A model generated the notes under the pieces. That model saw only the letters and a list, made by a program, of their open reading frames with translations, made no database searches and had not been told where the DNA came from. Position numbers and translations under genes: made by a program. From positions 1-44,214 of the forward strand of contig CALUXH010000064.1 of NCBI GenBank assembly GCA_944324695.1: 44,214 nt of DNA. Direction: 5' to 3'. Positions 3-22,911 of this stretch are shown one piece after another (positions within the stretch are counted from its first letter, which is position 1; every line of letters begins with the position of its first letter). The DNA is from an uncultured Elusimicrobiales bacterium. Lineage in GTDB: Bacteria > Elusimicrobiota > Elusimicrobia > Elusimicrobiales > Elusimicrobiaceae.

Positions 3-107
3 GGGAAACGGGTGGCGCGAGGAGTGTATTTTGGGTTGGTGGACTTCCGGGCAGCCAACGGACGGCAGCACTGCCAGAAAGTGGTAAAAATATTAATCCC
101 CAGATAA
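3..107 (+). CDS. 3' end of an upstream gene with a type IX secretion-like C-terminal sorting tail (partial)
   Basis: Frame 3 is open from the window edge to TAA at 105-107 and gives 34 residues. The tail has a Gly-Lys-Arg-Val-Ala stretch, then RGVYF, then a short spacer and a final KVVKI strand. This is the pattern of FlgD-like or type A T9SS C-terminal domains, where a G-V-Y-(F/Y) strand is followed by a Lys-rich last strand. The protein would be exported and sorted to the outer surface. The gene for a PorV/PorQ-like protein, a family that includes T9SS shuttle and sorting components, starts nine bases downstream, which supports the reading. Frame 2 is also open through this stretch, so the frame choice rests on the motif and the neighbour. 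Only the tail is visible and the main domain is unknown. Confidence 0.45.
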   Translation, partial: GKRVARGVYFGLVDFRAANGRQHCQKVVKILIPR

Positions 108-116
108 CGACATTTT

Positions 117-1085
117 ATGAAGAGAAAAAATAGCATTCTGTTTATTTGTTTCATCCTGGCTTTAGCGGCCCCGGCCGCGTGGGCCCAGAGTTATTCCGAG
201 GCCGGTACGAGCGCGAGCGCGTTTTTAAAAATCGATTCCGGTTCTCCGCGTGCGCAGGCCTTGGGCAATGCGTTTGTATCTATTGCCGAGGGGCCGGAGG
301 CGTTGTTCTGGAACCCGGCTGGTACGGCTTCGGCCACAACCAAAGAGTTGCAGCTGTCCTACCAGGATTATTTGCAGGGATACACTTCCCGTGCGTTGGC
401 CTATTTGCATCCGATGGGCAAGACCATTATCGGCGTGACGCTGAATTATATGGATATGGACGGCTTTGATTACCGTGATGAATGGGGGCAGCTCCAGCCC
501 GAAATCAGCACGCCGGTGCAGAACTTTGTGGGCAGCCTGTCCCTGGCCCGCGGTTTTTTTGACCAGGGCTTGCAGATTGGCGCAACGGCAAAGTATATTA
601 ATGAAAAGTTGGAAAATTACCGCTATACCAATGAGGGTTTTGACGTGGGCGCCAAAGCCCGCCCTTGGAAATGGCTGGGCCTGGGCGGCGCCATCGTCAA
701 TATCGGTGATAAGGACGAAATGCCCCGCGGCTGGCGTTTGGGCGCGGACATTAACACCAAATACTGGACGGTGTCCGGCGAATATATGAAATATGTGGAC
801 GACGAGGGCCGCATCGGCGTAGGCCTGGAAGTGCACATACCGGAAGATTTGCTGCAGGTGGCCCGGTTTGATTTGCGCGTTGGTTATTACAGCCGCGAAA
901 GCATCGGCTACAGCGACAGCGAAACCTTAAAAAGCCTGGGGTTGGACGGAACGTCTAAACTGTCTTTTGGTTTTGGCATTTACAGTTCCGAACTGTTCGG
1001 TTACGGTGCGCGTATAGATTACGCCATTACGCCGTTCGGCGCGCTGGGCACGGCCCAGCAGATAGCGGTGGGCATTCAGTTCTAA
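117..1085 (+). CDS. PorV/PorQ-family outer-membrane beta-barrel protein (UPF0164-like)
   Basis: This 322-residue protein begins with a signal peptide ending near AWAQ. The N-terminal hallmark of the PorV/PorQ family follows: a run of small residues, SPRAQALGNAFVS, then a WNPAG motif at about residues 65-70. The rest alternates aromatic and polar residues as in a beta-barrel and ends in F, like many outer-membrane proteins. In Bacteroidetes, PorV carries T9SS cargo to the attachment complex and PorQ binds lipid; other members are plain FadL-like barrels. Here the preceding gene ends in a T9SS-like tail, while the Tad pilus operon starts 24 bases downstream. No Shine-Dalgarno sequence precedes the ATG (context CATTTT-ATG), so translation may be coupled to the upstream gene. 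Family assignment is firm; the exact role is inferred. Confidence 0.75.
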   Translation: MKRKNSILFICFILALAAPAAWAQSYSEAGTSASAFLKIDSGSPRAQALGNAFVSIAEGPEALFWNPAGTASATTKELQLSYQDYLQGYTSRALAYLHPMGKTIIGVTLNYMDMDGFDYRDEWGQLQPEISTPVQNFVGSLSLARGFFDQGLQIGATAKYINEKLENYRYTNEGFDVGAKARPWKWLGLGGAIVNIGDKDEMPRGWRLGADINTKYWTVSGEYMKYVDDEGRIGVGLEVHIPEDLLQVARFDLRVGYYSRESIGYSDSETLKSLGLDGTSKLSFGFGIYSSELFGYGARIDYAITPFGALGTAQQIAVGIQF

Positions 1086-1559: not shown

Positions 1560-2048
1560 ATGAAAGCTTTTCATAGGGTGCGTGATGGGCAGGTGACGGT
1601 GGAACTGATGCTTATTCTGCCGGTGCTGATGTTAATGATATTTTTTGTATTGGAATACGGAAATATCGCCTATCACACCATTATTGCCAATCACGCTTCC
1701 TATGAATTTGCCCGCATCGGGGCCCTGGTGGGAACCAATAAACCTAGCGGCAAGGCCAATTCGGGAACGATGCGCAATAGAATAAACGCCGCCAAACAGA
1801 AAGTGTTTGGCTATAATGCGCGTTATATTAATGTAGGCGTAAAACTGCAGGCGACGGGGACCGACCCTAGGTATAAACGTCACCAGCATGAAGATGTGAT
1901 TGTTACGGTTACGTACCCCATTCGCTTGATTTTTCCCGGCACCAGCTGGCTGCTGGCCGATGAGCCCAAGCGCAACGGGATACGCCGCATAAAAGCCACG
2001 GCGCGTATGCCTGTGGAAAAAGTATATGCCAGCTTTGACCCGGCGTAA
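1560..2048 (+). CDS. TadE-like pseudopilin
   Basis: This 162-residue protein has a short basic leader, G-QVTVEL (Glu at +5), a hydrophobic helix and then the TadE-type continuation, in which small and aromatic residues lead into HASYEFARIGALVG. TadE and TadF are minor pseudopilins needed for Tad pilus assembly and are cut by the same prepilin peptidase. The exported part (from about residue 40) is basic and rich in beta-branched residues. It sits 14 bases behind the second Flp gene, within the tad operon. The pseudopilin class is clear; TadE versus TadF cannot be separated by eye. Confidence 0.8.
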   Translation: MKAFHRVRDGQVTVELMLILPVLMLMIFFVLEYGNIAYHTIIANHASYEFARIGALVGTNKPSGKANSGTMRNRINAAKQKVFGYNARYINVGVKLQATGTDPRYKRHQHEDVIVTVTYPIRLIFPGTSWLLADEPKRNGIRRIKATARMPVEKVYASFDPA

Positions 2049-2107: not shown

Positions 2108-2866
2108 ATGAAAAGAGGATTCATGTTGCCGTTGGTGTTAGGCATTTTGGCGACCGTCGTGTATATGCTCATAGTGAGCAGTGCGCAGAAAAAACTGGAA
2201 GCTTCCGGTACAATGCAGACGGTATTCGTGGCCAGCCGCGATATTAAAGAGCGGGAACTTATCAGCCCCAATATGCTGACCCGCGTCCGCATACCCAAAG
2301 CCTATGTGCAGAAAGACGCTTTCACCTATAATTCGGATGCCGATTTGTCCAGAATCAGCAACACGATTGCGCGCGTGCAAATCCCGAAAGGCAACCAGAT
2401 TTCCAAATATGCCGTCACCTCGCTTTCTCCCGAGGTGGGGCTGTCCAGCAAAATCCCGGTGCAAATGAGAGGCGTGGTAATCAGCGTGCCGACCAGCGTG
2501 GCCAGCATGATTAAGCCCGATGACAATATTGATATTTTGGTTACTTTTGACGCGATTATGAAAGACGGCTCCCGTCAGAAAGTAACCATGACGCTGCTGC
2601 AGAATATTAAGGTGCTTGGCGTGGGATCTGATTTGGGCCAAGGCTTGGACGCCCGTACGGCGGCCGCCATGCGCAACGATGAAGAAGACGCCAGCGCTTA
2701 TACCGATACGGGGACGCTGAGCCTGTCTCTTTCCCCGCAGGACGCGCAGTATTTGGCCTTGGCGCAAACGCAGGAAGGCAGCGAAGTTTCCGTGATCCTG
2801 CGCTCGCCCGGCGATGTAACGAGTTACGTCATGCAAATAGCCACTTTTGACAGATTATTTAACTAA
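2108..2866 (+). CDS. cpaB: Flp pilus assembly protein CpaB/RcpC
   Basis: This 252-residue protein has an N-terminal signal anchor and then a SAF domain (VASRDIKERELISPNMLT, residues about 37-55) typical of CpaB/RcpC. Next come the conserved block around VQIPKGNQISKYAVT and the RcpC domain with PTSVASMIKPDDNIDILVTF. The C-terminal part ends with a TLSLSPQDAQYLALAQ-type stretch, another family hallmark. CpaB is periplasmic and partners with the secretin CpaC, whose gene is the next one. An AAGGAG ribosome site precedes the ATG. Length and domain order are normal for the family. Confidence 0.9.
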   Translation: MKRGFMLPLVLGILATVVYMLIVSSAQKKLEASGTMQTVFVASRDIKERELISPNMLTRVRIPKAYVQKDAFTYNSDADLSRISNTIARVQIPKGNQISKYAVTSLSPEVGLSSKIPVQMRGVVISVPTSVASMIKPDDNIDILVTFDAIMKDGSRQKVTMTLLQNIKVLGVGSDLGQGLDARTAAAMRNDEEDASAYTDTGTLSLSLSPQDAQYLALAQTQEGSEVSVILRSPGDVTSYVMQIATFDRLFN

Positions 2867-3630: not shown

Positions 3631-5928
3631 ATGGCAGAAATAGAGACACAAAAAAACGAAGCCAAAATTATTGCGCTCAGCAGCCCCAAAGAAGGCGCGG
3701 GGAAAACTACCCTGACGCTGAACTTGGCCTTGGGCTGGGCGGGTATACAAAAAAGGCCGGTGCTTATTGTACCGCTGGACCCGCTGGCGCGTCAGGAACA
3801 CAGTTTTTATTTGGATATTAAGAAGCCCGTCAGCGTGGCCGATATTTTGCGCACGCTGGGCAATGCCAATATTGCCGTGGTGGGGGGGCTTTTGCGCGGC
3901 AAGGTGTCCATGTCCCAATGGGGAGTGGGCGTATTGCCTTTGGGCAACACCCGCGCGCAGGTGGCCGCCATCAGTCCTAAAATTTTAATTCCCATTTTAT
4001 CGCGTCTTTCCCAGACGTTTGACATTTTTTTGGATGTGGATTCTTCCTTCCCCATGCAGGCTTTTGCTTTCGATATTGCCGACAAAATATTTTGGGTCTC
4101 TAACGCAACGCGTACGCATTTAAATTCCACGGTGCTTTTGTTTAACGATTACAAAGAACAGAGCTACCCTATGGAACGCCTCAGCGTGATTTGCAATCAA
4201 TATGATATGCCCGGTTCCATTCCGTATGAGGAAGTGGAAAAGTTCTATAATTCACTGGGCCGCGATATTGATGTGTTTTTACCGTGGGACGAAGGGATTA
4301 TGGCTTCTTCCAACCGCAAGGAAGTGGAAATTATTACCAACCCTCAGTCCGAATGGATTAAAGGCTTGCGTTTGGTGCTGGCCAAAATACGTGATTTAAC
4401 GCCCGCGCCGAAAGATTGGACGGCATCCGTCAGCGACGAAGAGTTTACGCAGGCTTCCAAAGAAATATGGAGTCCCATTTTCGGAGGGGGCGGCTCCGGC
4501 GCGCCGGAGGAAAGCCACATAGCGCAAGAGGACGAATCCAACAAAACCAAACTGTCTTTCTGGGATGAATTGAAACAAAAAATCCACAAAGATGTAGTGC
4601 GTACTCTGGAAATAGAGCGTATTGTCATCAGTGATGAAAGTACGGCCAGCGCACAAACGCGCAAACGCGTGGCAGCCATTGTGGAAGATATTTTGCAAAA
4701 GCAGCCCAATTTACAGTTTTCACGGGATCAGCGCAGCCGTTTTACTTCGGAACTGCTGGACGAAATTTTAGGATTGGGGCCGCTGGAAAATTTAATGCGT
4801 GACCCGAGCGTTACCGAAATCATGGTCAATGCCTTTGACAAAATCTTTATTGAGCAGCGGGGTAAGCTGACCCTGACCAAATATAAATTTAGAAATAATG
4901 AGCAGGTGGTACAGGTAATTAAGCGTATCGTTTCTCCGTTGGGCCGCCGTATTGACGAATCCGTGCCGCTGGTGGACGCCCGCTTGAAAGACGGTTCCCG
5001 CGTCAACGCCATTATTGCGCCTTTGGCCGTATCCGGCCCGACGTTGACCATCCGCCGTTTCTCCCAGAAACCTTTCGGGCCGGAAGATTACTTCCGTTTC
5101 GGCACCATCAGCCCCGAATGTATGGAGTTTTTGGAAAAGTGCGTGCGCATTCGCAAAAATATCATTGTCTGCGGGGGTACCGGTACCGGTAAAACCACTT
5201 TCTTAAACGCTTTGTCCGGCTATATCGCCGATGACGAACGTATTATTACGGTGGAAGACACGGCCGAGCTGCGTTTGCAGCAGCCGCACTGGGTGTCTTT
5301 GGAAAGCCGCCCTCCCAACGTGGAAGGAAAAGGGCAAATATCCATTCAGGATTTGGTCCGCAACTGTCTGCGTATGCGTCCGGACCGCATTGTAGTAGGG
5401 GAATGCCGCGGCGGCGAAGCGCTGGACATGTTGCAAGCCATGAACACCGGCCACGAAGGTTCTCTGACCACCATTCACGCCAATACGCCGCGCGACGGTC
5501 TGTCCCGTCTGGAGGCCATGTGCATGCAGGCCAGTGCCGATTTGCCTATTTTCGCCATCCGCGAAATGATTTCTTCGGCTGTGAACATGATTGTGCAGCT
5601 GTCGCGTTTTTCCGACGGGTCCAGAAAGGTGACCTATATCACTGAAATGCACGGTCAAAAAGACGGGGAAATCCAGTCTACGGACTTGTTCCGTTATGTA
5701 CAAACAGGGGTGGATGAAAACGGCAAGGTGCAGGGCGTTTTTGCCCCGACGGGGAATTTACCCACGTTTTATCGTGAATTTCAGGCTAAAGGCGTGCCCG
5801 TATCCGAAGAAGTATTTACAAAAGGTGCGGTAAAACTCAATGAAAGCGGAGAGCCAGACTTGGCCTCTCTTCAACAGCGGCCCAGGCCTCCGCAAGTCCC
5901 TCAGCCGCCGGCTAAGCCGCAGCCATAG
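3631..5928 (+). CDS. tadA: TadZ-TadA fusion ATPase (CpaE-like plus CpaF-like)
   Basis: A single 765-residue frame joins two Tad proteins that are normally separate. Residues 1 to about 265 form a MinD/ParA-like domain with a deviant Walker A (KEGAGKTTL, 20-28) and match TadZ/CpaE, which positions the pilus machine at a pole. From about residue 295 the sequence is a TadA/CpaF secretion ATPase: an N-terminal helical region, the NA-FDKIFIE strand region, Walker [10 protein letters not shown] (515-523), the Asp box VEDTAEL, Walker B-like [14 protein letters not shown] (583-595) and the His box [13 protein letters not shown]. TadA powers pilus assembly as a cytoplasmic hexamer. The C-terminus is a Pro/Gln-rich tail. 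The linker near 4480-4560 is Gly/Ser/Glu-rich. The start has no clear ribosome site (AACATTTT-ATG), 10 bases after cpaC. Confidence 0.9.
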
Positions 5929-5937
5929 GAGCAAGCC

Positions 5938-7563
5938 ATGAAAAAATATCTTTTGTGGGCTGTCATATTGGGCGGGATATTGGGGATGATATCCCCGCGC
6001 ACGGCTTTTGCCCGCGCCCTGGACCATCGGGACAAAAAACAGATTCAGTGTGCACAGTTTAAAATGGAAGTGTTGGCCCGGTTTTTTGACGTTAGCCGCA
6101 CGGCCGATCAAAATAAATTCGCCTATCCCGATGTTTGCGGTTCGGGGTTGGAAGGCAAGGAAATTACCATGCCGCAATGGTTCCCCGAAGACCTCAAACG
6201 CATGGAAGATGTGAAGGTGATTTATATTGAAGGGGAAGGGACGCTAAGCGAGGCAACCCTTTGGTATCGTACTTTTTCTAATATTTATGCGTTTTTGGCC
6301 CGTGCCAACAATGCGCTGGATCCGAATCAGCCTATTGTCCTGCCGGAATTGTCCAGGGGATATGTGTCCAACCGTATTAGTTTAATGGCGAACCTGGATC
6401 ATTTGAATAAAGATTTAACCCGCGGCTCGGTCGTGTACAGTATGAAAGACAGCATGCAGGGCCGTGCCCGCGCCATGCTGGCCACGCTGGAAGTTATGAA
6501 CCGCGAGTTTTACAGCACGGTGGAATCTTTTACCAGCGCCGCTTCGCAGAAGGATGACAAGTACCGCCAGTCCGTGATGGCGGTGGTTACCCTTTCCAAC
6601 CAGCTGTGGCATGAATTTTTCTCCGCCCCTATTCCCATGGAATTGCCGAAAGAAGAGCTTTTCCGCGTAACGGAAGGGGAACGGTTGTTTAATGCCCTGC
6701 TTTTGGTGCTGGGAATGGCCTGCGTGGGGTTTATGGTGTATTTCCTGTTAAAAAACAATGAGACATATGTGCAGCAGCGTTGGGAAGAATACACCCAAAA
6801 AAGCACGGCTTGGGCCGAAGATTTTAACCGGCAATTTTTGACCATTGATGTGCGGTATATCGTATTTGGCACCGTGGGAATTTTTGCGGCTTTTGGGTTG
6901 TTTTTAGGCATTTCCACCGGCGGGTTCGGGGGAGTGTTTTTGTTTTTCCTGGTACTGGCCGCTGGCGTCATGATATCGGTGCGCATTCCGCCGATTGTGC
7001 TGGATACGCTGAAGAAAAGCCGCGGCCGGAAAATCAATGCCCAGCTGATGGATTCTCTGATTTTGCTTTCCAATTCGTTGCGTTCGGGCATGGATATTGT
7101 GCAGGGATTTGAATTGGTGTCTCATGACATGCAGCCTCCGATTTCTGATGAATTTGGGCTGGTTATTAAAAACTACCAGTTGGGCACGCCGTTTGAGAAG
7201 GCCTTGGAAGGACTGGATGAACGCGTGGAAAGCCGTATGCTTTCTTATACAATTAAGGCTATTATCATCCAGAGGCAGGTGGGCGGTAATTTGACGGTTA
7301 TTTTCTCCCGCTTGGTGGAAAATATCCGCGAAGAAAGCAAACTGGAAGAGAAACTGGATGCCATGACCGCACAGCAAAAAATCCAGTCTATCGTGGTAGG
7401 CATTATGCCGGTCATCATGCTGGGGGTCATGTTTATGTTCCGTCCGGATGAAATGTTGGCCTTTTATACCACGCCGGTGGGCCTTATTGTGCTGTTCGGA
7501 TGCATGGTGTGGATTTTGATTGGCATGAAACTGATTCAAAAAATGGGCGAGGTAAAGGTATAA
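5938..7563 (+). CDS. tadB: TadB-like inner-membrane platform protein with large N-terminal extracytoplasmic domain
   Basis: The protein is 541 residues, far longer than usual TadB (about 300). It opens with a signal peptide (MKKYLLWAVILGG... ending near TAFA). An uncharacterised soluble region to about residue 245 follows, then a membrane segment near 250-270, a short polar loop, two membrane segments near 300-345, the T2SSF domain (QLMDSLILLSNSLRSG to about 480) and a terminal membrane hairpin. The T2SSF part is the platform that TadA acts on. The added domain would lie in the periplasm and might make the contact that the shortened secretin lost; this is an inference. A GGAG ribosome site precedes the ATG, and tadC follows four bases after the stop. 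Confidence 0.85.
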   Translation: MKKYLLWAVILGGILGMISPRTAFARALDHRDKKQIQCAQFKMEVLARFFDVSRTADQNKFAYPDVCGSGLEGKEITMPQWFPEDLKRMEDVKVIYIEGEGTLSEATLWYRTFSNIYAFLARANNALDPNQPIVLPELSRGYVSNRISLMANLDHLNKDLTRGSVVYSMKDSMQGRARAMLATLEVMNREFYSTVESFTSAASQKDDKYRQSVMAVVTLSNQLWHEFFSAPIPMELPKEELFRVTEGERLFNALLLVLGMACVGFMVYFLLKNNETYVQQRWEEYTQKSTAWAEDFNRQFLTIDVRYIVFGTVGIFAAFGLFLGISTGGFGGVFLFFLVLAAGVMISVRIPPIVLDTLKKSRGRKINAQLMDSLILLSNSLRSGMDIVQGFELVSHDMQPPISDEFGLVIKNYQLGTPFEKALEGLDERVESRMLSYTIKAIIIQRQVGGNLTVIFSRLVENIREESKLEEKLDAMTAQQKIQSIVVGIMPVIMLGVMFMFRPDEMLAFYTTPVGLIVLFGCMVWILIGMKLIQKMGEVKV

Positions 7564-7567
7564 GCTT

Positions 7568-8455
7568 ATGAGCGGCGGGCTTTCCATAGTATTGTTTATT
7601 TTATTGGGCATCGGCAGTATTTCTGTATTTGTCACGGTGCTGACTTTGCTTTCTCCCAAAGGAGAGCAGACGCAAATCGTGGACGTTTCCGCGCGCCGGT
7701 TTAAATCTTCCTCCAGCTTTGCCAGATTACAGCCGGAAACAAAGTGGACGGACCGTCTGGCGGTATTTGTGCTTAATTCTTTCCATCTGGAACGCCCTTT
7801 GGAGCAAATGCATATGCAGCTGGGCAGCCCCGATATGCCGCAGCCGGTGGATATATTGTATTATAAAATTATCTTTGCCTTTGTAGTCCCTGCCGGCGGG
7901 ATGTTGCTGTTCCACAGCATTTGGGCCGTCGTGTTGGTGCCGGTGGGCTTTTATTTGCCGGATATTATATTGAAAAGCCGTATCCAGAAAAGACAGGCTG
8001 AGATTTTGGGCAATTTTTCCAGCACGGTGGATTTGGCGGCCTTGATTATTGAGTCCGGTTTGGACTATTTGACGGCATTTGAAAGAATTATTAACATCGC
8101 CAAGAAGAAGACCGTTTTGGAGGAAGAACTGGAAAAAACCCTGAATGAAATTAAACTGGGTTATTCCCGCCGTGAGGCATTGGAGCGGTTTGCCAACCGT
8201 ACCGGCGTGCAGGAAGTGCGTTCGTTGGTCGGATTGATTATTCAGTCGGATGAGCTGGGTACCAGCCTGGTGGATTTGCTGCGTAATTTTTCTTCCGATT
8301 TGCGCAGCCGGCGCATGAGCCGGGCCGAAAAGCTGGCCGCACAGGCATCCACCAAGATGCTGTTCCCGTTGTTTATTTTCATATTCCCGACGATTTTTAT
8401 TTTAATTCTGTCGCCCATGATTAAAGGCCTGCTTTCGCAGGGGCTGAGCTTTTGA
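7568..8455 (+). CDS. tadC: TadC-like inner-membrane platform protein
   Basis: This 295-residue protein has an N-terminal membrane segment, a short cytoplasmic linker, two central membrane segments (about residues 98-135) and a T2SSF domain with LGNFSSTVDLAALIIESGLDYLTAFERI and the second half-motif RREALERFANRTGVQEVRSLVGLIIQSDELGTSL. A last membrane hairpin closes it. TadB and TadC together form the Tad inner-membrane platform. Length and layout match the family. It follows tadB closely and is translated from an ATG preceded by a GAGGTAAAGG stretch inside the end of tadB. Confidence 0.9.
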   Translation: MSGGLSIVLFILLGIGSISVFVTVLTLLSPKGEQTQIVDVSARRFKSSSSFARLQPETKWTDRLAVFVLNSFHLERPLEQMHMQLGSPDMPQPVDILYYKIIFAFVVPAGGMLLFHSIWAVVLVPVGFYLPDIILKSRIQKRQAEILGNFSSTVDLAALIIESGLDYLTAFERIINIAKKKTVLEEELEKTLNEIKLGYSRREALERFANRTGVQEVRSLVGLIIQSDELGTSLVDLLRNFSSDLRSRRMSRAEKLAAQASTKMLFPLFIFIFPTIFILILSPMIKGLLSQGLSF

Positions 8456-8467
8456 GAGGATATATTT

Positions 8468-9841
8468 ATGAAAAAATATTTTTCCCTGTTTTTGGTCTTG
8501 TCCTTGGTTTCCGTCTCGTTTGCCGCGCCTTTGCGCCAGCCCAATCCCATCCGTCAGCATGGCAAGGAAGAAGGGATGATTTTGGATTTGAATAAAATAA
8601 CCCTGGGTACGTTAAATGACGTGGAAGAAAAAAAACAGTATCTCTCTACGGTGCAGCTGGAGAAACAGCGTATCCAAAATTATATGTTGCGCCAAGTGTA
8701 TGAAAATGCTTACACATTATACCGCCATGGGGATTACCAGCGCGCGCAGGAACTGGCGCAGACCATTTTAAGCATTGATCCCAACTTTACCCAGGCTTCC
8801 ACGCTGGCCAAGCAAGCCGCCAATATGGGGGCGTACGGGACCATTTCCGAAGCGGAAGTGGTGGAGGCCAAATTCCAGGAAGCCAACCGCATGTATGACT
8901 CCGGCCGCCTGGTGGAAGCCAATGAAAAGTTAGATGAAATTTTAACGATTCAGCCCTATAATTCCAAAGCCGCGGCCTGGAAAAAACGCGTCGACAAAGA
9001 TATTGCCCAGGAATATAACCGCCGCGGGGATGTGGCTTACGAAGAACAAGACTACCAGCGCGCATTGGACAACTGGTATAATGCGCTGATTATCCGCAAA
9101 GATGACCCGGCGCTGGTAAACCGCATCGCCCAAACGGAAAATTTATTGCGCAAACAGCAGGTAAAAGAATTAATGGAAGAGGCCATGACGTATTATAACC
9201 AGGGCCGCTTTACGGAATCTTATGCCATGTTTGAACGTATTACCAAAATACAGCCCGGCGATATCCGCGCCCAGCGATATATGATGCAGTTGAAAGAGGA
9301 GATTATACAGACGTATTTTACGGCGGGGAATAATTCTTATCGGGCGCAAAAATATGATTCCGCTATTAATTATTGGACCAGCGCTAAAAAGTGGGGGGCG
9401 GACGCTTCCCATATGGACCGCCTGATTAAACAGGCCCGTAACGCCAAGGAGGATGCTTTGCGCCGCCGCCAGGAAGCCGTCCAGCAGGCCGCAGAGCAGG
9501 CCGCCCAGCAAGAAGCGGAACAAGAACCGGAACCGATAGAGGAAGAACCCATTGAAACGGTAACGGTGGAATCCGGCGGAAATATCCTGCAGCCCAGCGG
9601 CAGCGTGCCGGGAACGGATGTGAACTCCGTTACGGACGGCATCGGCGGGGCGGCCACGCGGGTTTCCCCGGAGGCTACGGCGGCTTCGCGGCAGAAATAT
9701 TTGGAAGGGCTGGCCGCTTATCAGCAAAATGATTATGAACGGGCCAGAGAGGCGTGGATTGCGGCCAGACAGCTTGACCCTGGCAATACGGACGCGGCGC
9801 AGGGCTTGCGCACCGTGGAAGAACTGACCGGCGTGCGATAA
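8468..9841 (+). CDS. Exported TPR protein of the tad operon (TadD-like position)
   Basis: This 457-residue protein has a signal peptide ending near VSFA. At least five TPR-like units follow, for example around YRHGDYQRAQELAQTILSID, GRLVEANEKLDEILTIQP, EEQDYQRALDNWYNALII and GRFTESYAMFERITKIQP. A Gln/Glu/Ala-rich stretch (about residues 335-360) comes next, then a low-complexity linker, and a last TPR near the end (QQNDYERAREAWIAARQLDPGN). TadD in other Tad systems is a TPR lipoprotein that helps secretin and pilus biogenesis. This one occupies the same operon position but is longer and lacks an obvious lipobox. A GAGAGGA ribosome site precedes the ATG. Confidence 0.75.
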   Translation: MKKYFSLFLVLSLVSVSFAAPLRQPNPIRQHGKEEGMILDLNKITLGTLNDVEEKKQYLSTVQLEKQRIQNYMLRQVYENAYTLYRHGDYQRAQELAQTILSIDPNFTQASTLAKQAANMGAYGTISEAEVVEAKFQEANRMYDSGRLVEANEKLDEILTIQPYNSKAAAWKKRVDKDIAQEYNRRGDVAYEEQDYQRALDNWYNALIIRKDDPALVNRIAQTENLLRKQQVKELMEEAMTYYNQGRFTESYAMFERITKIQPGDIRAQRYMMQLKEEIIQTYFTAGNNSYRAQKYDSAINYWTSAKKWGADASHMDRLIKQARNAKEDALRRRQEAVQQAAEQAAQQEAEQEPEPIEEEPIETVTVESGGNILQPSGSVPGTDVNSVTDGIGGAATRVSPEATAASRQKYLEGLAAYQQNDYERAREAWIAARQLDPGNTDAAQGLRTVEELTGVR

Positions 9842-12319: not shown

Positions 12320-14221
12320 ATGGAAGCGGGGTTTGTGGTGAAAAAACATACGGGCACTTTGTTTTCCAGAGCGGTCTGGGCTTTATCCGTAGTGTCTGCC
12401 GTGCCGGTGTTGCTCATCGGCTGGCATGTGCTGCGTGTGGACGGCCGCGTGCTGCAAAACGAAATGTTGGACCGCCAGCGTACTGTCGCCGTGCAAATAG
12501 CTTCCATTATATCCGAAGAAGTCAGCCAAAAAGTGCAGTTTTTTTCTACGTTTATGGATTTGCACAGCGATTTTGGCGGACACCCTTTTGTTAATAAAGA
12601 AGATATTGACTATTTGCGGGAAAAAAATCCGGCCATCACCCATATTTCCATACTGAATTCAAAGGGTCGTTTGTTGTTTTATTCCGGAGACGACGGCGGG
12701 CGCTTCAGTTATGTTTCTGAGCTGGACAGCATTTTGCGCGCCTGTGTACAAAGCGGAAAGGAATATATCGGTTCCGTTAACCGGGACAGCAACCATTTGT
12801 ATGTTTTAATGGCATTCCCCGTGCGGGAGCATCGTGCGGACGCCCGGGTGTCCGGCGTATTGGTGGCGGAAATGGATTTGGGCGGTTTGGGCCTGGCCTT
12901 GGAAAAGAATTATCCGAAAGATATGTTTGTGGCCGTAGTCAGCCCCGACGACAATTTGATTTCTTATTCCGGTGTTCCGGGAGGATTGGTTCTAACGCCT
13001 GATGACTCTCTGCGTGTTGATCTTTTCCAATGGGGAAAGGAACTAGACGGCCGCAGCGGCGCCCATATCAAGACTGTGCAGGGAAAAGGGGTTTTAGTCA
13101 GCCGCGCTGAAGTGCCGGTTTTGGACTGGGCCGTATATGTAGAGCAGCCTGCGGATATGCTGCGGCGGCTGTTTTGGGCAAGCACGATTCATTCGCTGTG
13201 GGACATTGCCGCTATTTTGTTGGTTATGATCGCTTTTGTGTTGCTGGTCTCCTATTTGGTTATTATTCCGATTATCCGCCCCGTGCAGCGTTTGCAGGAG
13301 GCCGCCGTCAAGCTGGAAAGGGAAGACGATTATATGCCTACGGAAAAAGACCTGATTATTCCGGACAATGAAATCGGTGAGCTGGCGCGGGTGTTTTTGC
13401 ATATGGCGGCCGTATTACTGGAGCGGAAAAATGCCATTTGGGCCGCACAAAAAGAATTAGCCGTTATGAACCGGGAACTGGAACAACGCGTACAGCTTCG
13501 TACGGAGGAATTAAAAAACGCTACGGAAGAACTGGTCAAGTCCGAGCGTTTGGCCGCCATTGGGCAAATGGCTTCCATCATCAGCCATGAAATCCGCAAC
13601 CCGCTGGCGGTTATCAGCAATGCCACACGTCTGATTAAGACCATTGTTCCCCCGTCTAACCCTAAGCTGATTAAACAGTTTTCCATTATTGAATCGGAAA
13701 TCCGCCAGGCCAACAGCATCATCAGCGAAGTGCTGGGCTTTGCCCGCAGTCGGGAAATGATATTGAGCGTTATTGATTTAAACAGTTACTTGCATGACAT
13801 TATTCAGTCGTTTCCTGCGCCGGCGGGCATCCGCCTGCGTGAAGAGTTGGACCCCGAGAGCGCCCGTCTGAAAGTGGACGCCGAAGAGATAAAGCAAGCC
13901 TTGCGCAATTTGATATCTAATGCCTGCGAGGCCATGCAGGGCCGGGGCACCGTGACGGTAGGCAGCCGCGTGGGCAAGACGGCGGTGTGTATTTATGTGG
14001 CTGATGAAGGGCCCGGGATTTCCGCCGAACTGAGAGAAAAAATCTTTTCTCCTTTTTTCACCACCAAAGCCCGCGGTACGGGGCTGGGGTTGGCTGTAGT
14101 GCGCAAAACTCTCAGCCGTCACAAAGGCAAACTGTTTATATCCAGCGAAGAAGGAAAAGGGGCCGTTTTTGCGCTTTATTTGCGGATTTATCATAAAACC
14201 GGAGATACAAGTTATGAATGA
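12320..14221 (+). CDS. Membrane sensor histidine kinase with Cache and HAMP domains
   Basis: This 633-residue protein has two membrane helices (about residues 18-35 and 290-315) that flank an extracytoplasmic double-Cache-like sensor. A HAMP domain (IIRPVQRLQEAAVKLE) and a coiled coil (about 370-410) follow. The HisKA domain has IISHEIRNPL with phospho-acceptor His423, and the HATPase domain has N-box NLISNACEAM, G1 DEGPGIS, F-box FFTTKA and G2 GTGLGLAV. It is a NtrB/AtoS-style orthodox kinase. The start is uncertain: ATG 12320 has no ribosome site, and GTG 12338 is an alternative. The stop overlaps the next gene by eight bases (ATGAATGA), so the two are translationally coupled. No promoter is obvious upstream. 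Confidence 0.9.
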   Translation: MEAGFVVKKHTGTLFSRAVWALSVVSAVPVLLIGWHVLRVDGRVLQNEMLDRQRTVAVQIASIISEEVSQKVQFFSTFMDLHSDFGGHPFVNKEDIDYLREKNPAITHISILNSKGRLLFYSGDDGGRFSYVSELDSILRACVQSGKEYIGSVNRDSNHLYVLMAFPVREHRADARVSGVLVAEMDLGGLGLALEKNYPKDMFVAVVSPDDNLISYSGVPGGLVLTPDDSLRVDLFQWGKELDGRSGAHIKTVQGKGVLVSRAEVPVLDWAVYVEQPADMLRRLFWASTIHSLWDIAAILLVMIAFVLLVSYLVIIPIIRPVQRLQEAAVKLEREDDYMPTEKDLIIPDNEIGELARVFLHMAAVLLERKNAIWAAQKELAVMNRELEQRVQLRTEELKNATEELVKSERLAAIGQMASIISHEIRNPLAVISNATRLIKTIVPPSNPKLIKQFSIIESEIRQANSIISEVLGFARSREMILSVIDLNSYLHDIIQSFPAPAGIRLREELDPESARLKVDAEEIKQALRNLISNACEAMQGRGTVTVGSRVGKTAVCIYVADEGPGISAELREKIFSPFFTTKARGTGLGLAVVRKTLSRHKGKLFISSEEGKGAVFALYLRIYHKTGDTSYE

Positions 14222-15335
14222 ACAGGTAAAAATTTTAGTGGTGGACGATGATGCCAATCTGCGGGAAACCTTGGCCGATTTGCTGGAAATAGAAGGCTAT
14301 AAAGTATATCAGGCCGGAGACGGGAAAGAATGCCTGGATTTGGTGTCTTCGGAATTTTTTAACGTTATTTTGATGGACTATAATTTGCCCGGGGAATCCG
14401 GACTGGATTTAATTCGTAAGATTCGCGCTTTTAACCAGGACAGCCAAATTCTGATGATTACGGCGTATGCTTCGCTGAATTCTATTATGGAAGCTATGAA
14501 GGAATCGGTGTATGATTTCCTGATTAAACCGGTGGATTTCGATTACCTCAAGCGCACCATTAACCGGGCGTTGGACAAATATTTCCTGGAACGCAGCAAT
14601 AAAGAATTATTGGCCCAGCTGAAAGCGCAGAATGCGGATTTGGACCGTCTTAATAATATGAAGTCCAAGTTCTTTTCCATCGTGTCCCACGATTTGTCCA
14701 ACTCGCTGATGACGCTGAAGATGAGTTTTGACATGCTGAAAAAGAAAATGACGCCCGACCCGGATCAGGCCAAAAAAATTTCATATATGGATGAGTCTTT
14801 GGATCAAATAGAACACCTGATTAAAGACCTGGTGGACTGGGCTGCTATTGAAAAGGGCAAGCTGCGTATTGAAAAAGCCAACTTTGAATTGACTGCCAGC
14901 CTGAAAAAAACCGCCGAGATTTTTAAAGATAAAGCGGCCAAGCGCGGCATTGCCCTGTCTTTTGAAAGCGTGGGGGAAATACCCGTATTTGCCGACGAGA
15001 AACGCATCCGCCAGGTCATCTCCAATATTTTGGAAAATGCCGTGCGGCATACGCCGGACGGCGGGCGCATCGGGGTAACCGTCAGCAAACTGGATGAAAA
15101 AAATGCTAAAGTGTCGGTATCGGACTCCGGGGACGGCATTGACCCGGAAGTGGCCCCTTCGCTGTTTACCAGCTTTACGCAGGTGGGAGATAAAAACCGC
15201 GTGGGTCGGCTGGGGCTGGGGCTGTCCATCGCCAAGGATATTGTAAACAACCACGGCGGACGGATTTGGGCGCACAGCCAGGGGTTGGGGCATGGCGCGT
15301 CTTTCAATTTTACTCTGCCGATAGGCAGCCATTAA
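14214..15335 (+). CDS. Receiver-histidine kinase hybrid (soluble)
   Basis: The protein is 373 residues from the ATG at 14214, inside the end of the kinase gene; an upstream in-frame start lies within that gene and is unlikely. An N-terminal receiver domain carries VVDDDA and phospho-acceptor Asp55 (ILMDYNLPG) with the ITAYAS and LIKPVD switch motifs. A short coiled linker is followed by HisKA with VSHDLSNSL (His159) and a HATPase domain with NILENAVRHTPDGG, DSGDGID and GLGLSIA. There is no membrane segment, so it is cytoplasmic. It can be phosphorylated by the upstream kinase and can itself phosphorylate another regulator, plausibly the LuxR-type one encoded next. Confidence 0.9.
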   Translation: MNEQVKILVVDDDANLRETLADLLEIEGYKVYQAGDGKECLDLVSSEFFNVILMDYNLPGESGLDLIRKIRAFNQDSQILMITAYASLNSIMEAMKESVYDFLIKPVDFDYLKRTINRALDKYFLERSNKELLAQLKAQNADLDRLNNMKSKFFSIVSHDLSNSLMTLKMSFDMLKKKMTPDPDQAKKISYMDESLDQIEHLIKDLVDWAAIEKGKLRIEKANFELTASLKKTAEIFKDKAAKRGIALSFESVGEIPVFADEKRIRQVISNILENAVRHTPDGGRIGVTVSKLDEKNAKVSVSDSGDGIDPEVAPSLFTSFTQVGDKNRVGRLGLGLSIAKDIVNNHGGRIWAHSQGLGHGASFNFTLPIGSH

Positions 15336-15363
15336 TTTGACGCAACACTGGAGCGAAAAACAC

Positions 15364-16044
15364 ATGAATAAAAAGAAAAAAGTCAGAGTGCTTATTGCAG
15401 ATGACCAGACGCTTTTTCGCGAGGGCATCAAAGACGTGCTGACCGGCGAAAAGTGGATCGAAGTCGTCGGGGAAGCTGCCGACGGTCTGGAGGCCGTGGC
15501 TCTGTCCAAAAAATTAAAACCCGACGTGGTGCTTATGGACATTAAACTGCCCAAATTGGACGGTATTTCCGCCACCCGGCAAATTCGTGCGGCTGCGCCG
15601 GAAGTCAATGTGCTGATGCTGTCCTCTTTTGAAGACGAAGCCCACGTGCTGGATGCCATCCAGGCGGGCGCCAACGGGTATTTGTCCAAAATGCTTCCGG
15701 CGGCGGAGTTGGTCAATTCCATTAAAACTTTCACGGCCGAAGGGTTAATGATTCCCCAGCAGCTTATGGGCAAGCTGTTGCACGGGCTGCGCCGTATGGG
15801 AGACGGCGGCCTGCCTACCCAGGCTACGCTGACCAAGACGGAAATAAAAGTCATGGACTATTTGGGCAAAGGCCTGAGCAATAAAGAGCTGGCCAAAGAG
15901 CTGGGCTGCAGTGTCAAAACGATTAAAAATCATTTGAACAGCGCCTTCCATAAACTGGGCGTCAGCAGCCGTACCGAAGCCGTGGTAAAGGCCATTGAAA
16001 AAGGTCTGATCTCCTCGGAGGGGACCAAGTTTGAGGATGAATGA
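15364..16044 (+). CDS. NarL/LuxR-family response regulator
   Basis: The protein is 226 residues from the ATG at 15364, preceded by GGAG; a TTG at 15337 is less likely. The receiver domain has IADDQ and Asp59 (VLMDIKLP), followed by SSFEDE and the Lys in GYLSKML. The C-terminal LuxR-type helix-turn-helix has LTKTEIKVMDYLGKGLSNKELAKELG and then SVKTIKNHL. It binds DNA as a dimer when phosphorylated. It sits between two sensor kinases and pseudopilin genes, and its stop overlaps the next Flp-like gene by eight bases (ATGAATGA). It therefore probably regulates the pilus or the downstream surface-protein cluster; no binding site could be defined. Confidence 0.9.
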   Translation: MNKKKKVRVLIADDQTLFREGIKDVLTGEKWIEVVGEAADGLEAVALSKKLKPDVVLMDIKLPKLDGISATRQIRAAAPEVNVLMLSSFEDEAHVLDAIQAGANGYLSKMLPAAELVNSIKTFTAEGLMIPQQLMGKLLHGLRRMGDGGLPTQATLTKTEIKVMDYLGKGLSNKELAKELGCSVKTIKNHLNSAFHKLGVSSRTEAVVKAIEKGLISSEGTKFEDE

Positions 16045-18008: not shown

Positions 18009-19598
18009 ATGTTTAACCTTTTTAATAAATCCAAGGTTCGCACCGGGAAGCAAACCGTTTCCGCCGGTCAAAAGCCCGCCGCGGGCCAGCCGTCCGGGGC
18101 CAAAAAGCAGGCCCCGTTTGCCGCTTTGGGCAAAACCTGGGCCAAGCTTAATAAAATGGACCGAAAGCAGGCCTATACGTGGGGCTCCATTGCCGTAGTG
18201 GCGCTGCTGGCCCTGATTACGTTTGTTTCCGCCATGGGGGGCAACGAGGAAGATTTTTCCGGCTTTGAAACCCGCGGTTATGACCTGGCCAACATGCCTT
18301 TCTCTTCCGACGAAGCGGAACAATACCTTTTAGCGACCAAATATCCGGATATGCAAAACAGCACGCTTCCGCCGGGCCTGTATTCCAGCGCGGAGAAAGA
18401 GGCCCGCCAGGAGGAAGACGCGCAGGCGGCTGAGCAAGAGCAGCAGTCCTGGGAGGCGGAAGAGGATTCTTCTTCCGACTATGTGCCCGGGCGGTATTAC
18501 GGCGGCGGCGGTGGCGGCGGCAGGCAGCGTGCGCCTACGCAGGTGGGCGCGCTGAACAGCGCCAGCCTGAAAAGTGCCGGCGGATCCGGCATCAGCGGCA
18601 CCTTTGGCCCCACGGGGGATTTTTCCAATTTCCGCAGTCAGGAAAAGGGCAGCGACGTGTTTGTGCCGCAGCAGGGCTCTGCGGGTAATGCCCGTAAAGC
18701 GCTGTTTACCAGCGCCATGGGCAGCCGCGCGGCCGCCGGCCAGCTGGACAATCGCCTGGCCAATGCCAAAAAAGCCATGCTGGGCAATGTGCAGGGCAGC
18801 GCCGCTTTTATGAATGACAGCGGCGCGGTGGACCTTTCCAAGGCCGCCGGCCTGAACCTGGACCCGAACGCTCCCGTCAGCTCGGCCGATCCCAACGCGT
18901 TTAACGACGCGCTGGACGCCGCCCATGACGATGCGGGGAATGATGCGGCGGATCAGGATGAAGCCGAATGGTGGCAAACCATGTTGCAGGATTTGGCAAA
19001 GCAACTGGTCCAAGGGGTTCTGTCTATGGGCTTGAATGCCACACAAGGAGCGATAGATCAGGCCGTGGCGGCACGAAATGCGGGCGCAGCCGCATATCAG
19101 GAGTACATAGCGAATTCGCCCAACTATCCTCCAACAACAGTCAAGGGGGTCGTTCCTACTGACCAATTGGGTGATTTAAAGCCGAGTGTTTTGGACCAAA
19201 TGGGATTAGAATACAACGCAGACAAAACACTGTTAATGAAGGGGGATACTGTCGTAGCTAGAGCTTCTGTTAAAGATGGGGGTACTAGTTGGGACTATGA
19301 AGATGGACAAACGATTAAAATAGGCAACTGGGATGTAAAACAGATTGCAAAAAAAGATGAGAAGTGGTATGCGGAAAACTACCCACGGGAATATACCCAG
19401 GCAAAAGCCTATGCAAAACAGGCTGGATATAATGCCAGAAATAAAGTACCCCCCAGCAGAAAAGACTTTAGTGGAGGGCAAAGTAATAATCTTCCTAACC
19501 CAGCGTATGTAGCAGTAGGTACCACACAGACTGTGAACGGTCAAACATGGCGGCTTCAGGAACAAAACGGGACGAAAGAGTGGGTACTAGCTAACTAG
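18009..19598 (+). CDS. Membrane-anchored Gly/Ala-rich exported protein A with low-GC C-terminal tail; unknown family
   Basis: This 529-residue protein fits no family I recognise. A basic cytoplasmic start (NLFNKSKVRTGK) is followed by one membrane helix at about 56-77 and an acidic Gln/Glu stretch (about 125-155). A Gly tract lies near 165-171, and a Gly/Ser/Ala-rich region contains SGTFGP, a motif shared with the protein at 21106. A charged block ends at EWWQTM (about 320-325). The remaining roughly 200 residues are different: polar, Tyr/Lys-rich and low in Gly, and encoded with A/T-ending codons (12 of 40 codons G/C-ending at 19203-19322, against 21 of 26 at 18720-18797). The membrane helix predicts that most of the protein is exported. 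It is first in its operon, behind a strong promoter. Function unknown. Confidence 0.8.
   Translation: MFNLFNKSKVRTGKQTVSAGQKPAAGQPSGAKKQAPFAALGKTWAKLNKMDRKQAYTWGSIAVVALLALITFVSAMGGNEEDFSGFETRGYDLANMPFSSDEAEQYLLATKYPDMQNSTLPPGLYSSAEKEARQEEDAQAAEQEQQSWEAEEDSSSDYVPGRYYGGGGGGGRQRAPTQVGALNSASLKSAGGSGISGTFGPTGDFSNFRSQEKGSDVFVPQQGSAGNARKALFTSAMGSRAAAGQLDNRLANAKKAMLGNVQGSAAFMNDSGAVDLSKAAGLNLDPNAPVSSADPNAFNDALDAAHDDAGNDAADQDEAEWWQTMLQDLAKQLVQGVLSMGLNATQGAIDQAVAARNAGAAAYQEYIANSPNYPPTTVKGVVPTDQLGDLKPSVLDQMGLEYNADKTLLMKGDTVVARASVKDGGTSWDYEDGQTIKIGNWDVKQIAKKDEKWYAENYPREYTQAKAYAKQAGYNARNKVPPSRKDFSGGQSNNLPNPAYVAVGTTQTVNGQTWRLQEQNGTKEWVLAN
18501..18521 (+). repeat. GGC-type triplet tract encoding poly-Gly
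   Basis: A run of GGC/GGT triplets encodes seven Gly in protein A. Such tracts can change length by slippage in whole codons, giving a flexible linker of variable length. Confidence 0.7.
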
Positions 19599-19610
19599 CA
19601 GGAGTAAATT

Positions 19611-21083
19611 ATGAAACTTATAAATTTATTTAAAAGAAAGACAGGCAAGCTGGCCCTTTCCCCCATGCAGGCGGTGGGTCTGGCCGCCGTGGTGGGCGTG
19701 GCGGGCATCGGCGCGTACCGCATGATGGGCTCGTCCGAACAGCCGGATTTGAATACGGTGTTTTCTTCCGGCGGGCAGGATGTGGTGTATGTGTCCGGTG
19801 CGTCCGGCGGCAGCTACGGCGGGGTGGTGTACGGCAGCGGCGGCGCTTATTCCGGCGGCGGGGAAATACAGTCCGGCATTCATACCACTTTGTCCAAAGA
19901 TTTACAGCTGATGCAGGCCGATGCCGCGCGTGCCGATGCGTCGCAGCCGCAGTACGTCCAGCAGGAAGAGGAAATAACCGCTTATAAACTGGACGGGAAC
20001 AGCGGCGGTCTGGGCATGGGTACCACGCTGGACCGGGAGAAAGCTTCTGTGGATATGGGCGGCAGTATGCAGGCCGTGCAGAGCCAAATAGCGGCTTTGC
20101 AGGCTTCAGTGGCGCAGCAACAGGAGGCCGCGGCGCAGCAGGCTGCGGCGGCACAAGGCGGGGACGCGGCTGCGGCCGCGGCGGCCGCTTTGCAGGGCGG
20201 TGGCAGGAACTGGGGGCAAATGGCCTCCGGCATGGCCCGTGCGTCGGGCAGTAATTTGAAATCTACGCCGCTCCAAGCTTCCCGGCACGAAGGGCAGACC
20301 GTCAGCGCTTCGGGCGTTTTGGGCGGCGGTGCGGCGGGCGTGCCGCCCGCATCCGGCGCTTTGGCCAACGGGGTGACGGGTATAGCCGGGGACCGGCGTT
20401 CTTTTTCACGCGCCGGGGATTATATCGGCATGGCGGACTCGCTGGAAGAGCTGCAGCGGATCTCCGGCAAGACGGCCGCCTCTTCCCACAACTCTACCGT
20501 GGCGACGGCCCGGGGCTTTTTGTCTTCGTCGCATTTGGCCGGCGGTATCTTCTTGGAAGGCAACGAAACGCTCAGCACCGGCGTGGGCAGCTCGGCGGAT
20601 TTCAGCGCCAACAATTCTTTGAGCGGCCTGGGCGGCGCCATGGGGGGTATCGAAGAAGAAACCACCAGCTATGCCGAGGATTTAAGAACGTTGCATAAGA
20701 AACTTAAACATATGGCGAACAAGACAATGGTTTGTTCATTCTTGCCCATTGGTGTTAACCGTGCGTGTGCGCGCGGGCCTTACAAAAACGTGGAAGGTGA
20801 TATAGACAAATTTAAAGCCAAGTGGAGTGAGACTCCTTATGAAAAGGAAAATGCGGACGGCCCCGTAGCCGACCGCGTACTGAGGTTGGCCAAGAATATT
20901 CGTGATACTGCGTGGGTACCTGTTTTGCCTAAAATACGTTATAATCAGAACGTCGGCGATATTTTTAACGCCAATGCGTCCGAAAATCTTGACAACGATG
21001 CTGTGGATTACAATACAAACGACGTAACCAGTCCATACGGCTCTTCTGCTGCAGATGACAGTCTGGATTTGAACGCACAGTAA
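19611..21083 (+). CDS. Membrane-anchored Gly/Ala/Gln-rich exported protein B with low-GC C-terminal tail; unknown family
   Basis: This 490-residue protein has the N-terminus NLFKRKTGKL, close to that of proteins A and C, and a membrane helix at about 17-38. Gly/Ser/Tyr-rich repeats follow, then an Ala/Gln-rich predicted helix with an eight-Ala run (about 155-195) and ARASGSNL (near 210). A block (LEELQRISGKTAASSHN to FLSSSHLAGGIFLEG, about 280-320) aligns with a block in protein C. From about 20690 the sequence becomes low in GC: hand count 38 percent at 20701-20760 against 77 percent at 20281-20340. It encodes a Lys/Asn-rich tail with one Cys pair (MVCSF, RACARG). The end, ADDSLDLN, resembles the end of protein C. 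Function unknown. Confidence 0.8.
   Translation: MKLINLFKRKTGKLALSPMQAVGLAAVVGVAGIGAYRMMGSSEQPDLNTVFSSGGQDVVYVSGASGGSYGGVVYGSGGAYSGGGEIQSGIHTTLSKDLQLMQADAARADASQPQYVQQEEEITAYKLDGNSGGLGMGTTLDREKASVDMGGSMQAVQSQIAALQASVAQQQEAAAQQAAAAQGGDAAAAAAAALQGGGRNWGQMASGMARASGSNLKSTPLQASRHEGQTVSASGVLGGGAAGVPPASGALANGVTGIAGDRRSFSRAGDYIGMADSLEELQRISGKTAASSHNSTVATARGFLSSSHLAGGIFLEGNETLSTGVGSSADFSANNSLSGLGGAMGGIEEETTSYAEDLRTLHKKLKHMANKTMVCSFLPIGVNRACARGPYKNVEGDIDKFKAKWSETPYEKENADGPVADRVLRLAKNIRDTAWVPVLPKIRYNQNVGDIFNANASENLDNDAVDYNTNDVTSPYGSSAADDSLDLNAQ
20235..20257 (+). repeat. Dispersed direct repeat, copy 1 (ARASGSNL coding block)
   Basis: These 23 bases match 21628-21650 at 21 positions. They encode the shared ARASGSN(L) motif of proteins B and C and indicate common ancestry or gene conversion. 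Confidence 0.7.
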
Positions 21084-21105
21084 GGCCCCGTGCCGCGGAG
21101 GGATT

Positions 21106-22581: not shown

Positions 22582-22589
22582 GGTGCACT

Positions 22590-22859
22590 ATGGCAAAAGC
22601 AGACGGCAAAATGAAACGGTTTTTTATCGGGGCTTTGATATGGCTGGGCCTGTTGTCTTATATCGCGCTGTACTGGTACGCCGCCGCCGAACATAAGCAG
22701 GCCCGCCGGGAACTGGTGGATTTAAAGGCCCGCCAGCGGCTGGTGCAGGAACGGCGCGACAATGCCGCCCGCTGGGAGCGGGAAATGAAGGAGCAGCGTT
22801 TGCTGCGCCAGTACAACCGGGGCCGCGTCATCGGCGCGGACGGCAGAACCCTGAACTAA
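22590..22859 (+). CDS. Small membrane protein with coiled coil (protein D)
   Basis: This 89-residue protein has a short basic start, one membrane helix (about residues 10-30) and a long, highly charged helix rich in Arg, Glu and Gln (about 33-75) that looks like a coiled coil, ending in GADGRTLN. The layout resembles FtsB/FtsL-like bitopic proteins, but no family-specific motif is seen. A GAGGTG ribosome site precedes the ATG, eight bases after protein C. Its base composition matches the conserved parts of the cluster, not the low-GC tails. It could be an assembly partner for the anchored proteins. Confidence 0.65.
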   Translation: MAKADGKMKRFFIGALIWLGLLSYIALYWYAAAEHKQARRELVDLKARQRLVQERRDNAARWEREMKEQRLLRQYNRGRVIGADGRTLN

Positions 22860-22911
22860 CCCCGGCACAGGGGGCGGGCGGCCCGTCCCCCGAACAAAAG
22901 AGGATGCGGTT

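Follow-up and report, generated by a model that had tools for sequence, protein, structure and literature searches.

The 44,214-nucleotide contig CALUXH010000064.1 from an uncultured Elusimicrobiales bacterium (assembly GCA_944324695.1, family Elusimicrobiaceae), hereafter the window, opens with the 3' end of one gene, followed on the same strand by a gene for an outer-membrane barrel resembling PorV and PorQ of the type IX secretion system (T9SS), and then by a Tad/Flp pilus operon. The original prediction held that a T9SS-like sorting tail ends nine bases before the PorV/PorQ-family gene, itself 24 bases from the first pilin gene. The coordinates of the open reading frames (ORFs) confirm this arrangement. 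The tail is read in frame 3, positions 3-104, as GKRVARGVYFGLVDFRAANGRQHCQKVVKILIPR, with its stop codon at 105-107; nine bases separate this stop from the start of the barrel ORF (117), and 24 bases lie between the end of that ORF and the first small pilin gene (start 1110). We find that this gene pair is conserved in relatives, where the upstream gene encodes a giant protein, and that the genome also carries a divergent homologue of the T9SS channel SprA/Sov. The locus probably represents a type IX-like route with a separate shuttle for every cargo, here joined to a Tad pilus, and its parts would act together.

Because the window spans an entire contig (G000:C64 in our numbering; the genome has 1.41 Mb in 112 contigs and is 83% complete), the upstream protein cannot be recovered in full from its own genome, where a relative's giant protein used as query matched positions 3-104 of the window and nothing else. 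From a scan of genome contigs with the PorV-like alignment as query we kept 79 loci. They are titled Elusimicrobia, Elusimicrobiota, Elusimicrobiaceae, Elusimicrobiales, Elusimicrobium or, in some cases, merely uncultured bacterium, and one of them, from Candidatus Avelusimicrobium excrementipullorum, shows 90% identity; Avelusimicrobium is probably also the genus of the window. In 19 of the 20 relatives analysed, the gene whose end adjoins PorV encodes 1,118-1,778 aa (the contig of the 20th stops there), and it is read in the same frame as the window tail. In 57 loci, 1,500 bp or more of sequence are available upstream of PorV, and in 56 of these PorV is immediately preceded by a sorting-type C-terminal domain (CTD). 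The exception is a groundwater relative (L147, 28% identity) without tad homologues behind PorV. Among the 57 upstream ORFs, seven fall short of 800 aa, namely four that reach the contig edge, two interrupted ones (L085 and L114) and that of L147. Behind PorV, 78 of the 79 loci have homologues of the pilin, TadE and CpaB, 77 have the secretin and 76 have TadA (the contigs of L077 and L118 end too early), and this gene order is conserved down to 45% PorV identity. The window tail itself is a 94% match to the C-terminus of a relative's giant protein (E = 1.5e-14) and the sole significant match of the CTD profile among the window ORFs (2.1e-15, the next best being 0.79). Together with the CTD found before PorV in the relatives, these matches make the tail more than a chance resemblance.

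The N-terminus of the complete giants is, by eye, a signal-peptide-like stretch. The CTD profile matches 76 of the 90 genomes of the family, and 48 of the 51 good ones, mostly in one place, which is the giant; the misses include genomes with a contig break inside the tail. The window's genus thus looks reduced, with mostly a single cargo per genome. Second CTD copies occur in genomes G019, G022, G026, G054 and G083. In both G022 and G026, two contigs are identical over 141 bp of the giant 3' end and then diverge, and in G054 two contigs share 55 bp of it before the first mismatch; the 141 bp common to a pair in G072 are a plain overlap between two contigs. Repeated 3' ends of this kind are the likely reason why contigs break near PorV. 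The PorV match lies at most 300 bp from the upstream contig edge in 22 of the 79 loci (7 cut within PorV, 15 at a distance of 70-279 bp), whereas uniform placement would give about 1.0, as computed for PorV starts within 300 bp.

In G083, two giant genes stand in tandem (L050, 4764-8867 and 9068-13210), identical over 1,345 aa and with different N-terminal starts; they could be real or an assembly effect. The second giant 3' ends of G022 (L189, contig C8) and G026 (L190, contig C79) do not precede PorV, and the genes behind them are, by eye, an ABC transporter and a GAPDH-like gene. A type IV pilus cluster upstream of the giant was considered and ruled out by the gene content of the sole locus scanned, L053, which has GlgA, an alkaline phosphatase, FtsX-like and EnvC-like proteins, a Ctp protease, TsaD, a solute-binding protein and a diguanylate cyclase. 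The lengths of the ORFs upstream of the giant in L043, L044 and L050 are unlike those in L053.

We compared the CTD with known sorting signals. All matches of 36 CTDs to T9SS models are weak: PorZ in 36 (best 8.5e-8), PorU in 35 (5.6e-5) and TIGR04183 in 30 (2.1e-4), while four FlgD-type models match 3, 2, 1 and 1 of the same CTDs. The profile search on the complete upstream protein that the original prediction called for gave a divided answer in six complete relatives. FlgD_ig domains are clear in all six, and TIGR04183 scores close to its cut-off of 23 bits, with 22.3, 22.7, 23.5 and 25.7 bits in four giants (the highest falling on an internal domain) and no listed match in the other two. 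TIGR04131 was not among the NCBIfam library matches of the complete giants, and no separate search for it was made. In the phylum as a whole, 224 of 334 genomes, from 93 of 98 genera, have a TIGR04183 match, including 141 of the 191 good genomes; in the window's genus the model matches one genome only, at 9.6e-4. Its 0 matches in the window's own genome are expected, since just 34 codons of the CTD are present there. An AlphaFold2 model of a relative's CTD (predicted local distance difference test, pLDDT, 82) ranks the CTD of PorU first in the PDB (Foldseek 2e-4; structural Z score 9.0, root-mean-square deviation 2.7 over 103 residues), and it also resembles the translocon-bound CTD of RemA (Z 7.5, deviation 1.8 over 74 of 76 residues) and PorZ (Z 7.4).

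The barrel protein of the window matches the PorV family model NF033709 with 83.6 bits (E = 1.8e-23), slightly below the curated cut-off of 90. The barrel is present in 85 of the 90 family genomes and in all 51 good ones, mostly as a single copy, and dN is 0.02-0.07 against a dS of 0.4-1.1 in four comparisons of the gene (non-synonymous and synonymous divergence, respectively). The T9SS PorV chains are closest to the structural model of the barrel (pLDDT 81.6), with Z of 29.6 and 29.2 at 21% identity. A second match of the PorV model in the same genome, on contig C67, was rejected as an ordinary FadL (PF03349, 1.3e-63). The sub-threshold score, and the fact that an ordinary FadL also weakly matches the PorV model, would fit a chance neighbourhood, in which a FadL-like barrel and an Ig-repeat (immunoglobulin-repeat) protein, both of ordinary kinds, happen to precede the tad genes. 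However, the PorV family model is matched by all 30 aligned homologues of the barrel (best member 6.1e-42), no FadL model is among the NCBIfam matches of these 30, and the window protein has no Pfam FadL match at E 0.01. The conserved gene order and the pairing of paralogues described below also contradict chance, to which we give very little credence.

This pairing was found in G070 and G069, two relatives whose genomes are larger and have 13 and 7 PorV-like matches, respectively. We left out the Tad-linked ones and analysed the remaining 18 paralogues (L205-L222). The same-strand ORF directly before the paralogue ends in a CTD tail in 16 of the 18 cases, for example with WDGKNSSG..VASGVY close to the C-terminal end; L214 has a PorV paralogue without a CTD-tailed gene. 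By comparison, the same stretches contain 81 other ORFs with a length of 150 aa or more, of which 1 has the tail, and this one adjoins the PorV paralogue of L213 in the opposite orientation; none of the 62 window ORFs in this size range shows the pattern. The pattern was written after viewing the tails of the paralogue neighbours, and the control uses the identical pattern. Hence, cargo followed by shuttle is a general rule in G070 and G069, of which the Tad-linked pair is one case. The paralogue pairs of these two genomes resemble one shuttle per cargo.

The rule bears on another explanation, in which the giant would be an accessory of the Tad pilus or an adhesin at its tip and would leave through the Tad secretin, the barrel would anchor the giant or the machine in the outer membrane, and the SprA homologue would have another role. 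It is favoured by the giant and PorV-like genes being strictly tied to tad genes within the family, as well as by the T9SS motor not being detected (GldL in 0 of 90 genomes, GldM in 0 of 334, in a search without a positive control). Yet the paralogues pair with CTD genes independently of tad genes, and the CTD profiles match models of T9SS cargo. Moreover, no Tad secretin is known to export a protein as large as the giant. We consider this explanation unlikely.

A core gene of the T9SS was expected elsewhere in the genome if the sorting tail was genuine, and the suggested search for sov did find one. Contig C97 encodes a divergent SprA/Sov homologue of 1,813 aa (TIGR04189, 121 bits, E = 2.3e-35), a model that matched 0 of 14 control genomes. 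When a profile of 11 such SprA-like proteins was compared with the PDB, it retrieved two distinct sequences, both SprA (1.1e-20), aligned in separate stretches whose order is conserved, and no other relative. The SprA-like profile matches 298 of 340 genomes of the phylum (183 of the 191 good ones), spread over 92 of 100 genera; within the family it matches 88 of the 90 genomes. The neighbours of the gene in the window's genome (L058, G000:C97) are lipopolysaccharide genes (LptF/LptG, a Kdo transferase and a heptosyltransferase) and ComF. Such a setting, like the tie of the barrel with FadL folds and the unseen motor and sortase (see below), could point to surface retention only, with a FadL-type barrel holding the Ig domain and the SprA homologue being an ancient envelope protein that no longer exports the giant. 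Against this, genomes of genus g74 (taken as G248-G288, with membership inferred from the matches listed) tend either to retain both the SprA-like gene and TIGR04183 or to lack both. The gene is found in 12 of 14 genomes positive for the CTD, as judged by TIGR04183, and in 6 of 27 negative ones (Fisher 1.6e-4, worst case 1.6e-3), an association inflated by incomplete genomes losing both genes together. We regard retention without export as quite improbable.

Several results nevertheless weigh against a type IX-like route. TIGR04183 also matches Deinobacterium chartae, so a match to it is no proof of a T9SS. Unrelated Ig-type domains score Z 8.0-8.6 against the CTD model, and thus the fold alone cannot decide the identity of the CTD. 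The barrel model is likewise tied with FadL-family chains (Z 25-29, 12-18% identity), which makes its fold not discriminating. Neither the CTD nor the PorV-like sequence profile gave anything significant against the PDB, and none of the TIGR04189 matches, found in 87 of the 90 family genomes, is above the cut-off of 200. The original prediction also proposed to look for porK-N. The search covered porL/gldL and porM/gldM and found neither in these genomes; as the 14 control genomes gave no match either, the absence of GldL and GldM is not established. The PorU-type sortase (peptidase C25) is missing from 333 of 334 genomes, including that of the window. The C25 model is able to match within the phylum, since the sole positive genome, G334, has two matches. 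For this locus, likeness to a T9SS is upheld by the SprA homologue and the reading frame, whereas a complete T9SS is not, given the missing C25 and the motor not found in an uncontrolled search. The channel is homologous to that of the T9SS, and the shuttle and the signal are related to their T9SS counterparts; in our reading the route would work in the manner of a T9SS, and we do not class it as a complete one.

Taken as a type IX-like route, the left edge would hold the end of a gene whose giant product is exported by Sec and carries FlgD-type Ig domains, together with the whole gene of its PorV-like partner, both heading the Tad operon. The C-terminal Ig domain of the giant would most likely be a type A-like T9SS sorting signal. 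According to the available text of PMC10994853, the CTD binds PorV loops inside SprA in Flavobacterium johnsoniae, and the pair exits via a lateral opening. By analogy, the PorV-like barrel would dock on the SprA-like channel and bind the CTD of the giant in the periplasm; the giant would be taken by its shuttle within the channel, pass it and remain on the cell surface together with the shuttle. It would stay there uncut, because no C25 sortase is seen. The operon layout suggests that the giant is produced jointly with the Tad pilus, and it may serve as an adhesin or scaffold. More tentatively, and with clearly less confidence, one may envisage a phylum-wide type IX-like route that has a SprA-like channel and one PorV-like shuttle for every CTD cargo but neither the GldLM motor nor PorU, and that in gut Elusimicrobiaceae would have been reduced to serving mostly a single giant adhesin in each genome, with export or placement coupled to the Tad operon and energy provided by the Tad ATPase or another inner-membrane machine.

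The genes behind the barrel (Table 1) comprise CpaB, TadE, a secretin, a TadA ATPase and two T2SSF proteins in one operon, as in Tad/Flp systems. The TadA gene is laid out, with its MinD/CbiA-like domain ahead of the ATPase, as if TadZ and TadA were fused, and the secretin protein is mostly secretin domain. Within the long run of genes that follows, positions 12320-16044 encode a LuxR-type response regulator as well as a pair of histidine kinases, one of which carries a receiver domain. After the Tad and two-component genes come four proteins of 487-529 aa (18009-24375) that are rich in Gly, Ala and Ser and have no Pfam matches.

Table 1. Features at the left end of the window.
Feature	Position	Strand	Evidence and remarks
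3' end (34 codons and stop) of giant CTD-bearing protein gene	3..107	+	truncated by contig edge; complete homologues in 19 relatives
PorV/PorQ-like outer-membrane barrel, 322 aa	117..1085	+	NF033709; signal-peptide-like start (by eye)
Small pilin-like protein, 60 aa	1110..1292	+	position and by eye, no family match; homologue in 78/79 loci
Flp1-like pilin, 75 aa	1318..1545	+	PF16982 2.5e-4, under cut-off
TadE-like pseudopilin	1560..2048	+	PF07811 1.1e-11
CpaB/RcpC	2108..2866	+	TIGR03177 2e-30, above cut-off
Short secretin-domain protein, 244 aa	2886..3620	+	PF00263 1.1e-41
TadA-type ATPase, MinD/CbiA-like domain N-terminal	3631..5928	+	TIGR03819 1.2e-99 (under cut-off), PF00437, PF01656
T2SSF-type membrane protein (TadB-like)	5938..7563	+	PF00482 3.5e-17
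T2SSF-type membrane protein (TadC-like)	7568..8455	+	PF00482 5e-16
TPR protein of Tad operon	8468..9841	+	PF07719 1.1e-22

The available text of a 2016 survey confines the T9SS to Bacteroidetes (PMC4793230), and that of a study of Poribacteria leaves CTD proteins without a channel unexplained (PMC3909097). The literature searched, which excluded subscription journals and preprints, yielded no account of T9SS genes in Elusimicrobiota; the accessible parts of PMC7031533, PMC12204202, PMC8542988, PMC8857248 and PMC3909097 report none for the phylum. The SprA homologue, in 183 of the 191 good genomes, together with TIGR04183, in 141 of them, provides a candidate channel for such tails. The origin and the minimal parts of type IX export thereby become testable; should the known motor really be absent, one would have to ask what drives release. 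Shuttle genes beside cargo genes offer a simple rule for locating a cargo and its partner, and the linkage to tad genes points to an adhesion system in animal-gut bacteria.

Like the T9SS of Bacteroidota, the system described here has a SprA homologue, a candidate shuttle of the PorV family and an Ig-like CTD weakly matching T9SS CTD models. It differs in belonging to another phylum, in its divergent, below-cut-off SprA homologue, in the near-universal lack of C25 and in GldL and GldM not being detected (without a positive control), as well as in having CTD and shuttle genes adjacent and linked to a Tad operon. The T9SS-like CTD proteins of Poribacteria are, from what is accessible of PMC3909097, a precedent for TIGR04183-type tails outside Bacteroidota, with the difference that Elusimicrobiota genomes also hold the SprA homologue and paired PorV-like genes. 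The dedicated shuttles of F. johnsoniae, as presented in the available part of PMC12618676, similarly serve their own substrates, which is here deduced from gene pairs alone. The FadL/OmpP1 transporters share the barrel fold of the window protein; their identity to it is lower than that of PorV, and the window protein lacks a FadL profile match. Finally, the pilin, TadE, CpaB, secretin, TadA, two T2SSF and TPR genes follow each other as in a Tad/Flp operon, which here differs in having genes for a CTD protein and a PorV-like barrel at its head.
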